The notes: generated from the sequence alone by a model not told the origin. DNA of 44,913 nucleotides from a bacterium (GCA_016932575.1 JAFGCO010000050.1:1-44913); one strand, 5' to 3'. Shown: positions 9,972 to 17,172, counted from the first letter of the stretch. Made by a program: numbers and translations.

Positions 9972-10598
9972 ATGAAAATGAAACCGATGATACTTTTATG
10001 CATCTTAATAATCATGTCAAATGTTGCTCTTGCACAAATGAATGAGGAAGATCCTCAAGAAGAAGTACAGGCAGAGGAAGTACAGGCAGAGGAAGTTCAG
10101 GCAGAGGAAGTTCAGGCAGAGGAAGTACAGGCAGAAGAAGTTCAGGCAGAAGAAGTTCAGGCAGAAGAGGTTCAGACAGAAGAAGTTCAGGCAGAAGACA
10201 CAGAGAAGGGCTTAATTACATTGACCGAGGATGGGAAAGGATTCTTGAAGGACGGGGAGAAATTTTTGTTTGGTGAAAACTTTCAGACTTTGGAAAAAGC
10301 AGTGAGAAATTGTCCGCGGGCAAGAAGAGAAATAATAGCAGCGCGCGGTAAAAGCCGGGGTGCCGGCATTTTAGCTGCAATTGCCGGAGGCATGAGCGGA
10401 ACTGGAATCGGGATCTATCTTGGGGGAGATGAGTATGGCAGTAAATCTGAAAGAAGCAAAGTGTGCTGGACCTTTCAAGGACTTTGCTGCGGCTTTGCAG
10501 CTTTGGCCGTGATACCCACAACTATGCAGAAAAATCATATTGAAAATGCCGTGAAGTATTATAACGAAGATCTTAAAGCTGGCAAGTTAATTCAATAA
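9972..10598 (+). CDS. exported EEVQA-repeat protein with membrane segments
   Basis: 208 residues: signal peptide (1-21, ending VALAQ), nine tandem EEVQ[A/T] pentapeptides (about 30-74), a short domain (LITLTEDGKGFLKDGEKFLFGENFQTLEKAV), then two hydrophobic segments rich in Gly/Ala (AGILAAIAGGMSGTGIGIYLGG and GLCCGFAALAVIP). The repeats are highly acidic and should be extended or helical, perhaps a spacer or a cation-binding tether. GGAGG lies 6 nt upstream of the ATG. The strong hairpin at 10624-10666 ends the operon. No family recognised. Repeat number probably differs between strains because the DNA is a near-perfect 15-bp tandem array. Confidence 0.65.
   Translation: MKMKPMILLCILIIMSNVALAQMNEEDPQEEVQAEEVQAEEVQAEEVQAEEVQAEEVQAEEVQAEEVQTEEVQAEDTEKGLITLTEDGKGFLKDGEKFLFGENFQTLEKAVRNCPRARREIIAARGKSRGAGILAAIAGGMSGTGIGIYLGGDEYGSKSERSKVCWTFQGLCCGFAALAVIPTTMQKNHIENAVKYYNEDLKAGKLIQ
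10059..10193 (+). repeat. 15-bp coding minisatellite, nine copies
   Basis: Nine in-frame copies of a 15-bp unit (GAAGAAGTTCAGGCA with A/G and A/T variation) encode EEVQA; the eighth copy reads EEVQT. A unit length divisible by three lets copy number change without a frameshift. Confidence 0.9.
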
Positions 10599-10715: not shown

Positions 10716-12107
10716 ATGACCACAATAATGAAGCGATACCTGATTTTAATTTTCATATGTTGTCTGTTCATCCCCTCCGCGCTCTTCTGTGAAAACATTT
10801 ACTGGCCGTATGAATCAAAATTTGATAATGCATACATTATTAAACATATCATCCGTGACGCTGCCTATAATAACAGCAAAGGATATCCCTATTCAACGAA
10901 TATCTTATTAAATCCAATCGCATTATATCATCGTTCTTTATCAAATTCCAGCTGTCAGTATTATCCAAGTTGCTCACGCTACACATATTTGTCCATAGAT
11001 AAATATGGATCAATAAAGGGTTTGATATTGGGAGCTGAAAGATTTACAAGATGTTTTTATTTGGCCGATGCTTCAAAATATTTTCGTGTCGGACCCTTTT
11101 ATTATGATCCGCCAGCGGATTACTTTGGTTGTCATCCGGACAAATTTTCTCATAATACTTATGAAATATTTTTGCATGATAATCTTCAAAAATATTTGGC
11201 ATACGCCTCAAATACAGTCTCTTTAGATGAGACGATTTATAGCCGCATTGAAACAGAATTCGATTCATTGTTATTTCTTTTTTCATTCAAGGGCGTTGAT
11301 GATGACCCCCTGGATTTTGCCTGTTTTTTATATCAGAGTCATAAATACTATCAGGCATCAACCGAATTATATCGTTTTTTATATCGTCATCAGAACAACG
11401 AAAACAGTGATGAAGTACTCCTTCTTTTGGCCCTTTGCAATTTTCAATCCGGACGATATGCTGATGCCGCAAATTTATTTGCCAATTCAAACCAATATGC
11501 TATTCAGGACAGGATGATTATTTTTTCAAAGTATATGCAGGGGTTAGCACTATATTATGATTGCCGATATCCTGAATCAAAAACCCTATTGTCACAATTG
11601 CTGTCACTTCAAAATTCATATTTTAGAAAACAAATCTTAACGATGTATAGTCTCTCATGTATAAAGATGAATGACAGAGCGTCGGCTTTAAGCATGCTTG
11701 AGAGATTTCCTGAAGATGAACATGCATTGACACTCAAAGCCAGTTTTACTAAAAAAAAGGCAAAGTCGCCTTTATTTGCTTCAGTGCTCTCTTCTATCGT
11801 CCCGGGTTCCGGACAATTTTATTCCAATCATTATCGTGAAGGATTATTTGCATTACTTGTCAATGGTCTTTTTGGCTACACATTCTTTGATTCGTGTAAA
11901 AACGGAACGTCATCAGATAAAATTTTCCACGGATTTTTATTTTTACAATTTTATTCATCCAATATACTGGCGGGGAAAAGAGCAGCAATTGTATCCAACG
12001 AAATCAGTAATGAAAACATTATTTCAAATATGATATCAAAAACCGCTATAAATACCGACTATTCATTAATCAAGAAAAATAATGGTTATTACATCAAGGT
12101 CTATTGA
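10716..12107 (+). CDS. exported YidD-domain fusion with helical repeat region
   Basis: 463 residues. A signal peptide or N-terminal membrane helix (6-25) comes first. Residues 62-140 form a YidD-like domain: NPIALYHRS, the signature CQYYPSCSRYTYLSIDKYGSIKGLILGAERFTRC, and a final YYDPPADY. YidD is normally a stand-alone protein of 70-100 residues on the cytoplasmic side that helps YidC insert membrane proteins. Here it is followed by about 200 residues of helix pairs that look TPR/SEL1-like (YQASTELYRFLYRHQ, DEVLLLLALCNFQSGRYADAANLF), and then a tail with SIVPGSGQFYSNHYREGLFALLVNGLFGY, a membrane segment like those of DUF5683-type proteins. The leader suggests periplasmic location, opposite to classical YidD. 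No clear ribosome site; ATG 10728 is an alternative start. It follows the lipoprotein operon terminator, so it has its own promoter. Confidence 0.7.
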   Translation: MTTIMKRYLILIFICCLFIPSALFCENIYWPYESKFDNAYIIKHIIRDAAYNNSKGYPYSTNILLNPIALYHRSLSNSSCQYYPSCSRYTYLSIDKYGSIKGLILGAERFTRCFYLADASKYFRVGPFYYDPPADYFGCHPDKFSHNTYEIFLHDNLQKYLAYASNTVSLDETIYSRIETEFDSLLFLFSFKGVDDDPLDFACFLYQSHKYYQASTELYRFLYRHQNNENSDEVLLLLALCNFQSGRYADAANLFANSNQYAIQDRMIIFSKYMQGLALYYDCRYPESKTLLSQLLSLQNSYFRKQILTMYSLSCIKMNDRASALSMLERFPEDEHALTLKASFTKKKAKSPLFASVLSSIVPGSGQFYSNHYREGLFALLVNGLFGYTFFDSCKNGTSSDKIFHGFLFLQFYSSNILAGKRAAIVSNEISNENIISNMISKTAINTDYSLIKKNNGYYIKVY

Positions 12108-12676: not shown

Positions 12677-15670
12677 ATGCGTAAAAATTGTGTAAAAACC
12701 TCGGCCGCTGAAGATCCACTGTGGGTTCAGAAGGGCTATGATGCCCGATTCCAAAATTTTCAGGGATTAATGCGCCATCGCATTCGTGATATCCTGCTTG
12801 TTTCCAGCCTGTATGATTTTATTATTTTCGAAGAAGACGGCCGTATTTATGATTTGATACGCGATAAATATCAGGGACTGAATCTTACTCATCAACCCGA
12901 ACTGACCCAGGTCTCCTCTGGTGGCCAGGCCATTTCTATGGTGCGTGATATGCGTTTTGACATGGTGCTGGTGACTTTGCATATCGAGGATATGGCACCG
13001 GCGGATTTGGCAAAAGCCATTAAACAGAGCGGTATTGATATTCCTGTGGTCATGCTTGCCTTTGACAATAAAGAGCTGTCCGATATGCTCATTCATCACG
13101 AAACAGAGTATTTTGACGATATTTTTATCTGGCAGGGAGATTACCATCTTATTCTGGCGATTATAAAAACTGTGGAAGACCGTCTGAATGTGGCTGAAGA
13201 TACGGACAAGATCGGCGTGCAATCGATTATTATGATCGAAGACAACATCCTTTATTATTCATCGCTTCTGCCAATGATTTATGTAGAAGTCATGAACCAT
13301 TCTCAGCGTCTGATTGAGGAAGGGATCAATTTTTCGAATCGACGTCTCAGAATGCGAGCCCGTCCAAAAATATTGTCATGCAAAACATATGAACAGGCAT
13401 GGGATTATTTTCAAACCTATCAGGAAACCGTTCTGGGAGTGATTTCGGATATTGATTTTTATAAAGAAGGCAATCCCTGCCCTGATGCCGGTTTGCAGTT
13501 TGCAAGAGATGTAAAAGACGTTTATTCGGATATTGCCGTGCTTCTGCATTCGACCAACTCGGATTATCAGTCCGCTGCGGAAAAGCTGGGAGCTTATTTT
13601 GTTTTGAAAGATTCTCCCACATTGCTTCAGGAACTACGACGGTTTATGGTGGATCAATTAAGTTTCGGGGATTTTATTTTTCATTTACCGGATGGAACAG
13701 AGGTGGGACGTGCACATGATTTGTTATCCCTGGAACATCAGTTGGCCGAAGTTCCGGAAGAAAGCATTGTTTTTCATGCGGAAAGAAATCACTTTTCAAA
13801 CTGGCTCAAGGCGCGCACGGAATTCTGGCTTGCTCATGAAATTCGTGCACAGAGACTCTCTGATTTTCCCACGGTTGAAGACACAAGACAGAGCTTGATT
13901 CGGTCGCTGCGTGATTATCGAAAACTTCGCCAATTGGGAGTGATTACTGATTTTGATCCTGACGGATTCGATCCGAATACCAGCCTGTCAAGAATCGGAG
14001 GAGGATCGCTTGGAGGAAAGGCACGGGGATTGAATTTTGTCAATATGCTGATGATCAATGCCAATTTGCAGAACCGGTTTCCGCATATAAATATCCGGAT
14101 TCCACCGGCTGTGATCATAGGTACGGATGTGTTTGATCAATTTTTGGATAATAATGATCTAAGAGATTTTGCCCTGCATTCCGAGGATGATCAATCGATA
14201 TTGAATCGATTTATTGAAGCTGAGAAGTTTCCTGAGCAGATTATGCGAAAATTGGCTGCCTTTTTAGAAATTGTGAATGTACCGCTGGCTGTTCGCTCCA
14301 GTTCTTTGCTGGAAGATTCTCATGTGCATCCTTTTGCCGGAGTTTACAAAACCTATATGCTGCCCAATGTACATCCTGATCCATTTGTCCGGTTATTGGA
14401 ACTGATCAAGGCCATTAAGAAGATATACGCCTCAGCCTTTTACCAGTCCGCAAAAAATTATGTGAAGGTTACACCCTACCGGCTTGAGGAAGAAAAGATG
14501 GCTGTTGTCATTCAGAAGATGGCGGGGGATATACATGACAATCGGTTTTATCCGACGTTTTCCGGTGTGGCCAAGAGTTATAATTATTATCCGATCGCTC
14601 CGCAAAAATATGATGATGGAATTGTCAACATTGCGCTCGGTCTGGGAAAGACTGTGGTTGAGGGAGGATTATGCGTAAGATTTTGTCCCAGATATCCGGC
14701 AATGTTATCAGTCGGGACTTCTCCTGGAGAACTCATAAGAAGTTCACAGCAAACATTTTATGCATTGAACCTGAATGCTGAAGAACAGGAACAGACCAAT
14801 AAAGATGATGTATTCCTTGAAAGGTACAATCTGTCTGTTGCTGAGAAGGATCAAACATTGACATATGTTGCCTCCACATATTCTCCGCAAAATGACCGCA
14901 TTTATGATGGGTTGTCCAGAGCGGGGGAGCGTCTGGTTACATTTGCCCCTATTTTGAAGAATAAACATTTTCCATTGGCTGATATTATGAATTCATTATT
15001 GAAACTTGGAAGCTGGGGAATGGGAACACCCGTTGAGATTGAATTCGCAGTAAATTTATCCGGAAAAAACCAGGAATTGTATTCCCTTTATGTTTTGCAG
15101 ATGCGCCCCATTGTGTTAAATCGGGAACTGGAAGTTTTTGATATCGATGATTATCAAAAAAATGAGTTGATATGTCAGAGCCATCAGGTTCTGGGAAATG
15201 ATATTGTAGACAATATTTATGATATGGTTGTGGTTGATAATAACTGTTTCAACCGGTCCGAAAGTGTTAAAGTTGCCGAAGAAGTCAGTACTTTAAATGC
15301 CCGGTTGATCGAATCAGAGCGGCCCTATATTTTAATCGGTGTGGGTCGTTGGGGAAGCCTGGATCCATGGCTCGGAATTCCTGTCGCCTGGGAGCAAATT
15401 TCCGGAGCAAGAGTTATTGTAGAAGCAGGATTTAAGGATTTTTCTGTAGAGCCTTCGCAGGGGACGCATTTTTTTCAAAATCTCAACAGTTTTGAAATCG
15501 GTTATTTAACCATTCATAAAGAAAATGATCAGAATTTTATCAACTGGGAATGGCTGCTTTCGCAACCGGTTTGCTCAGAGATGGCTACCACACGACATCT
15601 CCGCTTCGATAAACCAATTGTAGTGAAAATGAGCGCGCATCAGAATAAAGGCATCATTTTGAAACCATAA
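12677..15670 (+). CDS. tandem receiver / PPDK-type ATP-grasp signalling protein
   Basis: 997 residues. Residues 38-165 look like a receiver domain but lack the acidic pair (LLVSSLYDF) and a normal phospho-Asp site. Residues 183-325 form a second receiver that keeps the expected set: E188/D189, D258 or D260 in ISDIDF, T293 in LLHSTN and K311 in YFVLKDS. Residues 440-830 are the ATP-binding domain of pyruvate phosphate dikinase/PEP synthase: GGGSLGGKARGLNFVN, PLAVRSSSLLEDS and AGVYKTYMLPN. The central phospho-His domain and the PEP/pyruvate barrel of the enzymes are absent. The C-terminus (ILIGVGRWGSLDPWLGIPVAWEQISGARVIVEA, SQGTHFFQNL) is a domain typical of this FCB-wide group of unassigned proteins. 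It probably uses ATP in a phosphotransfer step controlled by phosphorylation. The next genes are a CheY-like and an OmpR-like regulator, then the polysaccharide cluster. Confidence 0.75.
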   Translation: MRKNCVKTSAAEDPLWVQKGYDARFQNFQGLMRHRIRDILLVSSLYDFIIFEEDGRIYDLIRDKYQGLNLTHQPELTQVSSGGQAISMVRDMRFDMVLVTLHIEDMAPADLAKAIKQSGIDIPVVMLAFDNKELSDMLIHHETEYFDDIFIWQGDYHLILAIIKTVEDRLNVAEDTDKIGVQSIIMIEDNILYYSSLLPMIYVEVMNHSQRLIEEGINFSNRRLRMRARPKILSCKTYEQAWDYFQTYQETVLGVISDIDFYKEGNPCPDAGLQFARDVKDVYSDIAVLLHSTNSDYQSAAEKLGAYFVLKDSPTLLQELRRFMVDQLSFGDFIFHLPDGTEVGRAHDLLSLEHQLAEVPEESIVFHAERNHFSNWLKARTEFWLAHEIRAQRLSDFPTVEDTRQSLIRSLRDYRKLRQLGVITDFDPDGFDPNTSLSRIGGGSLGGKARGLNFVNMLMINANLQNRFPHINIRIPPAVIIGTDVFDQFLDNNDLRDFALHSEDDQSILNRFIEAEKFPEQIMRKLAAFLEIVNVPLAVRSSSLLEDSHVHPFAGVYKTYMLPNVHPDPFVRLLELIKAIKKIYASAFYQSAKNYVKVTPYRLEEEKMAVVIQKMAGDIHDNRFYPTFSGVAKSYNYYPIAPQKYDDGIVNIALGLGKTVVEGGLCVRFCPRYPAMLSVGTSPGELIRSSQQTFYALNLNAEEQEQTNKDDVFLERYNLSVAEKDQTLTYVASTYSPQNDRIYDGLSRAGERLVTFAPILKNKHFPLADIMNSLLKLGSWGMGTPVEIEFAVNLSGKNQELYSLYVLQMRPIVLNRELEVFDIDDYQKNELICQSHQVLGNDIVDNIYDMVVVDNNCFNRSESVKVAEEVSTLNARLIESERPYILIGVGRWGSLDPWLGIPVAWEQISGARVIVEAGFKDFSVEPSQGTHFFQNLNSFEIGYLTIHKENDQNFINWEWLLSQPVCSEMATTRHLRFDKPIVVKMSAHQNKGIILKP

Positions 15671-15775: not shown

Positions 15776-16159
15776 ATGGCGGGGAAAGGGCATATCATTC
15801 TATTAATTGAGGACTCACAATCCACGCGATACATGTATCACAATATTTTTGCCAAGGCTGGCTTTTTTGTGATTGAAGCCGAGGATGGTGAAACAGGTCT
15901 GAAAATGATCAAACAGCATCACCCGGATTTGGTGGTACTTGATTTGATTCTTCCCGGTATTCACGGACTCGAAGTACTCCGACGTATACGATCCGATCAT
16001 ACAACGAAACAAATACCGGTATTGGTTTTAACCAATGTAAAGGACATGGAAAATCGACAGAAAACCCTGAGTTCGGGTGCCAACTATTACATGCACAAGG
16101 AAAGTGTGACAGATCAGCACATTTTAAAAGTCATCAATGATTTACTGGGAATTCAATAA
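15776..16159 (+). CDS. CheY-like single-domain response regulator
   Basis: 127 residues, a lone receiver domain. All key positions are present: E12/D13 in LIEDSQ, phospho-acceptor D56 in VVLDLILPGIHG, T86 in VLTNVKD and K108 in YMHKES. Without an output domain it should work by protein contact or as a phosphate relay. The neighbouring tandem-receiver/ATP-grasp protein ends 105 bp upstream, so it is a plausible partner. No histidine kinase is encoded in the window. Confidence 0.9.
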   Translation: MAGKGHIILLIEDSQSTRYMYHNIFAKAGFFVIEAEDGETGLKMIKQHHPDLVVLDLILPGIHGLEVLRRIRSDHTTKQIPVLVLTNVKDMENRQKTLSSGANYYMHKESVTDQHILKVINDLLGIQ

Positions 16160-16488: not shown

Positions 16489-17172
16489 ATGGAAGGAAAA
16501 AAAGTACTTCTTATGATCTCAAATTCTGTTGTCGGGGACCGTCTCGAGCAGGCATTTTACCGTGCCAGCTATGAGGTGCTCAGGACGGACAACGGAAAAC
16601 AGGCTGTTCATTGGCTTCAGACCAGTACACCTCAGGCTATGATTGTAGACTGGGACATTGCCAATGGTTCAGTTGATGAGATCCGCCGTTTAATCAATGA
16701 TCAATTCCAGAAAACCGCGCTTATTCTTCTTTCTGAGAATCGGCCTCCTGAAGAGCGAATACATGCCCTGGAAGAAGGGGCTGATGACTGTTTAAGCTCT
16801 TATCCGGCTGTGGATGAACTGGTGGCCAAAGTGAACGCGCTGATTCGCAGAATTAATCTGGTGGATCATACACCGCGGAATCTGCAGATCAAAGATATAC
16901 AAATTAATCTGGATACGCATGAAGTGCGAAAAAGCGGTAAACTCATCGATCTTACTTACACGCAGTTCAAGCTGCTTTATCTTTTGGCTTCAAAACGGGA
17001 TTATATTTTTACCCGAAATGAAATTTTGGATAAAGTATGGGGCGAAAACGCCTATGTCACTGACCGCACCGTTGATGTGCACGTAAAACGGCTGAGAGAG
17101 AAGCTGGGCGAAGACCGCCTTCCTTCCCGGTATATTCAGACCATTCACGGATTGGGTTACCGGTTCGCTTAG
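16489..17172 (+). CDS. OmpR/PhoB-type DNA-binding regulator, degenerate receiver
   Basis: 227 residues. Residues 130-227 are a winged-helix output domain with the family landmarks LTYTQFKLLYLLASKRDYIFTR, VWGENAYVTDRTVDVHVKRLREKLG and IQTIHGLGYRFA. The N-terminal receiver keeps D54 in MIVDWDIANGS, but the acidic pair is replaced by S11-N12 and the conserved Lys by Ser in DCLSSYPA, so phosphorylation is doubtful. Such atypical regulators usually bind DNA without a kinase or respond to a ligand or partner. It sits directly before the sugar-transferase gene (117 bp gap) and is the best candidate regulator of the polysaccharide cluster. AAAGGA precedes the start. Confidence 0.9.
   Translation: MEGKKVLLMISNSVVGDRLEQAFYRASYEVLRTDNGKQAVHWLQTSTPQAMIVDWDIANGSVDEIRRLINDQFQKTALILLSENRPPEERIHALEEGADDCLSSYPAVDELVAKVNALIRRINLVDHTPRNLQIKDIQINLDTHEVRKSGKLIDLTYTQFKLLYLLASKRDYIFTRNEILDKVWGENAYVTDRTVDVHVKRLREKLGEDRLPSRYIQTIHGLGYRFA

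Follow-up and report, generated by a model that had tools for sequence, protein, structure and literature searches.

The window analysed here, i.e. the whole stretch of 44,913 nucleotides of bacterial DNA, carries on its plus strand an uninterrupted open reading frame (12677–15670, start codon ATG) for a protein of 997 residues. It belongs to a large and uncharacterised bacterial family in which two receiver domains (REC1 and REC2) are joined to an ATP-using domain. The features referred to below are the following, with the evidence for each in brackets:

12677–15670, plus strand: protein of 997 residues with the order REC1, REC2, linker, ATP-grasp domain, C-terminal swivel-like domain (open reading frame, Pfam, homologue alignment, model)
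12782–13171, plus strand: REC1, residues ~36–165 (Pfam Response_reg below cut-off; residue counts in 104 homologues)
13214–13681, plus strand: REC2, residues ~180–335 (fold match; residue counts in 104 homologues)
13682–13951, plus strand: linker with the HAERNHFSNWLKARTEFWLAH motif, about residues 336–425 (conservation in homologues)
13952–15130, plus strand: PPDK_N or ATP-grasp domain, residues 426–818 (Pfam, fold matches, residue counts)
15140–15667, plus strand: C-terminal swivel-like domain, residues 822–997, not in Pfam (conservation, model)
15467–15469, plus strand: codon of His931, candidate phospho-His (His in 132 of 133 homologous domains)
15776–16159, plus strand: CheY-like single receiver of 127 residues, 105 bp downstream, a possible partner at the window locus only (open reading frame, Pfam)
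16489–17172, plus strand: OmpR/PhoB-type response regulator, a neighbour that nothing ties to the system (open reading frame, Pfam)

Polysaccharide genes follow the two receiver genes. Upstream, the window encodes a predicted secreted protein in which a signal-like N-terminus is followed by about eight pentapeptide repeats of the AEEVQ type in tandem (9972–10598) and a protein of 463 residues in which a YidD domain is fused to TPR-like and DUF5683-like segments (10716–12107), an unusual arrangement for YidD, which is usually tiny.

A full-length AlphaFold model of the 997-residue protein, computed with 21 homologues as input (mean pLDDT 81), shows two receiver folds, the linker, the ATP-grasp domain and the C-terminal domain. 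A PEP/pyruvate-binding TIM barrel is absent, as the preliminary description of this DNA had stated: Pfam finds no C-terminal PEP-utilizers match, and the protein stops 180 residues past the ATP-grasp domain. The linker motif HAERNHFSNWLKARTEFWLAH is highly conserved, and the linker (residues 340–425, 13694–13951) resembles DUF5752 only very weakly (E 0.15).

For the region of REC1, Pfam gives a Response_reg match at residues 72–132 with E 3e-6, under the gathering score. In the window protein T100 stands in for the acceptor Asp, S43 and S44 for the acid pair and W152 for the Lys. Among homologues of the same architecture (class 1, see below) the acceptor position is occupied by Thr in 69, Met in 12, Ser in 10, Asn in 9 and Ala in 2 sequences, with Asp absent among these counted residues (102 of 104 sequences), and Trp152 sits at the expected position of the conserved Lys in 101 of the 104. 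To judge by these residues, REC1 is a conserved pseudo-receiver. REC2 is unseen by Pfam, and its model matches the receiver domain of ComE (Z 15.2, 128 residues, r.m.s.d. 2.2 Å). All 104 class-1 homologues keep E188, the predicted phospho-acceptor D258 (codon 13448–13450), Ser or Thr at 292 (S292 in the window protein) and K311, and 96 of them keep D189, which is Asn in the other 8. REC2 is thus a complete receiver as far as its residues can tell, with acid pair, acceptor Asp, Ser/Thr and Lys all present, and the combination of one degenerate and one apparently intact receiver, which had been proposed for the window protein, is correct and holds across the family.

The PPDK_N match (PF01326, residues 444–817) is strong, with E 9e-39 and 134 bits against a Pfam cut-off of 27, and the structural matches of this domain are PEP synthase, rifampin phosphotransferase (RPH), HpeI and PPDK (Z 16–26; 17–26 for PEP synthase, RPH and PPDK). 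K448, R540, E789, Q808 and R810 are invariant in the 104 class-1 homologues; we take them to be the equivalents of K22, R92, E323, Q335 and R337 of PPDK. An hhalign comparison with a small set of PPDK sequences aligned poorly, and the assignment as ATP-grasp domain rests on Pfam and the fold matches. Together with the intact reading frame and the fold of REC2, these matches bear out the earlier view of the protein as two receivers linked to a PPDK-type ATP-grasp domain.

The C-terminal 176 residues (822–997) form a highly conserved domain with the motif GRWGSxDPWLG...E...PSQG[ST]HFF. G890, R891, G893, E916, S927 and F932 are invariant in 133 sequences, and the single exception at His931 is a Tyr in one class-3 relative. 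Three classes of PPDK_N proteins have the domain in common, although outside it their identity to the window protein is only ~30–40%. Folded alone, with the 133 sequences, it is predicted with a pLDDT of 93.8, and nine of its top ten matches in VIA-align are swivel domains of the phospho-His type, all with Z values (5.7–7.4) below 8, i.e. in a range where chance resemblance is possible. They come from PPDK, RPH and EI-Ntr, and from bacterial pyruvate kinases, whose extra C-terminal domain is related; the best is the phosphoryl-carrier domain of PPDK in 5jvj (Z 7.4, 116 residues, 3.2 Å), and 2fm4, 5lu4, 2r82 and 5jvl are further matches to this PPDK domain. Lower-ranked matches are LD-carboxypeptidase, GroEL apical and aconitase-type domains, which have the same swivelling beta/beta/alpha fold in SCOP. 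The order of ATP-grasp and swivel-like domain is that of PPDK; His931 comes after a Ser or Thr where a helix begins, as does the catalytic His of PPDK in its GGMTSH motif.

At the level of sequence none of the 133 domains matched PF00391 in a Pfam scan with E up to 10, an hhalign profile comparison, for which swivel domains were taken from 30 genome loci, revealed no PEP-utilizers similarity, and a PDB profile search detected no phospho-His domain. Foldseek alone gave no match below 0.001 for the C-terminal model. Its best match, glutathione peroxidase, had a probability of only 0.33 and was rejected, and a weak PDB-profile match to VAMP7 longin domains (E 0.03) was taken as chance. We consider it probable, on the strength of the modelled fold, that the domain is a divergent swivelling phospho-His domain, and no more than probable because structural Z values below 8 can be chance and Foldseek alone is not significant. 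Structure prediction, the check suggested for this domain in the preliminary description, has given a confident fold with modest swivel-domain matches (Z about 7) and no sequence similarity. Since the domain probably is of the phospho-His type, the argument that the protein lacks such a domain is weakened and, in view of the structural matches and the near-invariant His931, probably wrong despite the absence of PF00391.

A homologue scan over contigs of one genome per species found at least 569 confirmed relatives, the best 80 of which were used for the analysis of neighbourhoods. Relatives of near full length and 47–63% identity occur throughout the phylum of the window. The titles of the best 80 of the at least 569 include KSB1, Ignavibacteria/Bacteroidota, Calditrichota, Acidobacteria, Gemmatimonadota, Planctomycetota, Zixibacteria, Eisenbacteria, Aminicenantes, Myxococcales and others, mostly metagenome bins of which some are possibly misassigned. 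Class 1 consists of the receivers, linker, ATP-grasp domain and C-terminal domain and nothing more. Class 2 proteins, of about 590 residues, have the same core and are receiver-free, and class 3 proteins are extended at the N-terminus; some genomes encode versions of class 3 that end in a nucleotidyltransferase domain (PF01909).

When genes around the best 80 of the at least 569 homologues were clustered, glutamate dehydrogenase (GDH; PF00208/PF02812) was the sole outstanding neighbour. Of the 67 loci among these 80 that could be assessed by tblastn, 59, spread over at least eight phyla, have a GDH gene no more than 2.5 kb away, and the other 8 have none at this distance; GDH is upstream on the same strand in 50 of the linked loci, downstream on the same strand in 5 and downstream on the opposite strand in 4. 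A further 20 stretches from the phylum of the window include 18 with GDH beside or near the gene, and a contig end truncates one of the remaining two; this count shares some contigs with the former and is not independent of it. The linked enzyme is of the hexameric type and related to solved NADP-dependent GDHs. A second GDH type directly precedes class 2 and class 3 genes, in the order GDH, class 2, class 3, and is followed by all 11 class-3 genes with N-terminal extension that were retrieved for this test; at least one such locus (L116) has a single-receiver gene 5' of GDH, and by inspection of the sequence L117 has a similar open reading frame. In Ignavibacteria-type genomes, copies next to a GDH of 446 residues and copies next to a GDH of 453 residues form separate clades, which suggests that class-1 paralogues and GDH types are partner-specific pairs. 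A distant relative whose N-terminal region has no Pfam match is placed between GlnB, two glutamine synthetases (GlnA) and GltB (L230:342–12501, in genome G006, contig C72); this locus extends the link of the PPDK_N superfamily to ammonium assimilation.

Because a GDH gene adjoins most relatives across many phyla, the protein probably regulates nitrogen metabolism under the control of a signal, rather than being an enzyme for polysaccharides. Tentatively, and as not quite an even bet, we propose by analogy with VadK (see below) that its members are PPDK-derived, receiver-gated phosphotransferases devoted to GDH and ammonium assimilation that may regulate GDH after translation. If so, a sensor kinase would phosphorylate D258 of REC2, which has the residues of an intact receiver; phospho-REC2 together with the pseudo-receiver REC1 might then open or close the ATP-grasp domain, which in turn would move a phosphoryl group from ATP onto His931 of the swivel-like domain, as the conserved residues would allow; and the phospho-form might bind or phosphorylate the GDH encoded next to it, a linkage that is observed, and so alter its activity. 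A phosphotransferase under the control of phosphorylation, with a protein or a sugar as its target, had already been suggested; the protein target gains from REC2, the ATP-grasp domain and the adjacency of GDH, and the polysaccharide side of the idea fails. The probable phospho-His domain and the missing polysaccharide link are both points that the preliminary description had itself named as counting against it. GDH adjacency could also reflect co-expression without physical regulation, and the conserved His residues that are present in the GDH sequences include none that can be called special to the linked enzymes, nor do these sequences show an obvious special modification site.

The family might instead consist of small-molecule dikinases whose ATP-grasp and swivel-like domains phosphorylate a metabolite at the glutamate/2-oxoglutarate node, in the way that RPH and HpeHI phosphorylate their substrates, with GDH as a pathway neighbour and the receivers gating activity. 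Adjacent enzymes can signal a shared pathway, and the small-molecule kinases rifampin phosphotransferase and HpeI are among the best matches of the ATP-grasp domain; class 1, however, lacks the additional domain with which RPH and HpeH bind their substrates, and links to several enzymes of nitrogen assimilation (two GDH types, GlnA/GltB) suit a regulator better, which makes this reading an unlikely one. The protein could also be an allosteric partner of GDH, gated by ATP and the receivers, that senses energy charge through its ATP-grasp domain and docks with its C-terminal domain without any covalent transfer. Such a binding surface would fit the conservation of the whole GRWG...PSQGTHFF motif beyond the His, and a C-terminal domain without detectable sequence relation to phospho-His domains; yet the catalytic residues of the ATP-grasp domain are kept in 104 of 104 homologues and the structural matches point consistently to phospho-His domains, and we assign a low probability to this possibility as well.

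The window copy itself lies away from any GDH gene. Its genome has two of these, on contigs C63 and C7: the former has a second class-1 gene of this genome directly downstream (mostly masked as N), the latter (447 residues) has none. The closest relative of the window protein, 63% identical and its sister with a support of 100, comes from genome G002 and is encoded in a cluster with a GDH of 447 residues, itself the best match (75%) to the C7 enzyme. The end branch is 0.29 for the window copy versus 0.12 for the second copy, the latter value being derived from the first 309 residues only. The likeliest account is that the window copy is a diverged, duplicated paralogue that moved away from its GDH. 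By analogy with G002, its partner would most likely be the C7 GDH, because the closest relatives of both sit in one G002 cluster; the pairing with the 447-type enzyme is drawn from G002 and not from co-phylogeny, because the window protein falls on the side of the tree linked to the GDH of 453 residues. A separate canonical PPDK is encoded on contig C6 of the same genome. The CheY-like neighbour was rejected as a conserved partner, homologues being found near only a few loci.

The window copy might also be a scaffold without catalytic activity or a decaying paralogue, drifting after the loss of its GDH partner. This would agree with its separation from GDH, its longer end branch and a closest relative of only 63% identity, but is very improbable given an intact open reading frame with all catalytic residues kept and the persistence in the same genome of a partner-type GDH (447 residues, 75% identical to that of G002). 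Most improbable is a phosphotransferase of the polysaccharide cluster, with a sugar or BY-kinase/Wzz proteins as its target. The position of the gene upstream of the CheY-like, OmpR-type and polysaccharide genes speaks for it, as does the scope for a changed role of the window copy outside the GDH neighbourhood; against it, homologues of the window's Wzz, Wzx, Wzy and GT_22755-type glycosyltransferase are absent near the best 80 of the at least 569 relatives, where GDH is the dominant neighbour. In the window the gene does stand at the head of several signalling genes that lead up to polysaccharide genes, as had been described, but this arrangement is not conserved near these homologues, and the neighbourhood survey once suggested for Wzz/BY-kinase genes revealed conservation of GDH instead.

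Our preferred reading, a regulatory phosphotransferase, has precedents. VadK (Rv1127c) of M. tuberculosis, a PPDK-derived regulatory kinase without the PEP barrel, phosphorylates itself on His422 and interacts with enzymes of the methylcitrate cycle whose genes lie close to its own; it has been proposed to tune flux after translation (PMC13400623). The window family resembles it in having an ATP-grasp domain followed by a phospho-His-type domain (here a candidate), no PEP barrel and a gene for a metabolic enzyme nearby. VadK, however, has a canonical PPDK His domain, methylcitrate-cycle partners and no described receivers, whereas in the window family two receivers stand at the N-terminus, the C-terminal domain is highly divergent and the neighbour is GDH. 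With PPDK and PEP synthase it shares the PPDK_N ATP-grasp domain with its catalytic residues and a C-terminal swivel-like domain in the same order, but it has neither the PEP/pyruvate TIM barrel nor a PF00391 signature and has gained N-terminal receivers. Rifampin phosphotransferase and HpeHI/CreHI/PpsAB have the same type of ATP-grasp domain and use a swivel His domain, and differ in having a domain that binds a small-molecule substrate, which the window family lacks; HpeHI is also an example of the natural recombination of ATP-grasp and swivel modules (PMC12167813). A census from 2018 lists a fusion of REC and PPDK, called a 'Bacteroides-like combination', in three Heimdallarchaeota; in the part of the census that concerns it, the fusion receives a passing mention without function or GDH link, and it is by architecture alone that we liken it to the window family (PMC5847659). 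The architecture is therefore not new, and regulators of the VadK type are known as well. In the literature searched, which leaves most subscription journals outside, the GDH linkage and the C-terminal domain are unreported, and nothing relevant turned up on GDH-linked PPDK-like proteins or on a connection with Salinibacter gdhX.

A more far-reaching and decidedly doubtful extension is a so far unrecognised covalent control system for GDH in many phyla, formed by class 1 and the receiver-free class 2, which some operons would pair with a nucleotidyltransferase-bearing class 3 protein, i.e. an analogue of GlnD/GlnE with a new phospho-carrier domain. GlnD/GlnE control acts on glutamine synthetase; the analogue, if true, would act on GDH. 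GDH is a central point at which carbon and nitrogen metabolism meet, and to our knowledge its post-translational control is little known outside a few models. The pair of genes for GDH and a putatively receiver-gated dikinase, conserved over several phyla, is a concrete candidate case of a two-component system that controls a metabolic enzyme directly and not through transcription. The C-terminal domain, for which Pfam has no family, would represent a novel kind of phospho-carrier or docking domain. Labels such as 'PEP synthase' or 'PPDK' are likely on genes of the family and would mislead metabolic models.

Some further arrangements were seen among the relatives. Class-3 proteins with a polymerase-beta-type nucleotidyltransferase domain follow GDH at L116:8946–12131 and L118:2235–5405 (PF01909 in both), with homologues in G005, G009 and G020, and in principle recall control of the GlnD/GlnE type. 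Short class-3 proteins (about 770 residues) are not GDH-linked in the examined stretches; in three genomes (L225, L226 and L227) they lie near a PorX-like receiver–PglZ gene, with PglZ confirmed by Pfam only in L226, and also near a CHASE2-like gene that is named from inspection of the sequence only. Finally, in each of two Deltaproteobacteria bins two class-1 genes follow one another directly, separated by about 3 and 14 bp (L098:3663–9673 and L099:9947–15956); GDH is absent from the examined stretches of both loci, and the tandem genes possibly encode a heteromeric pair.
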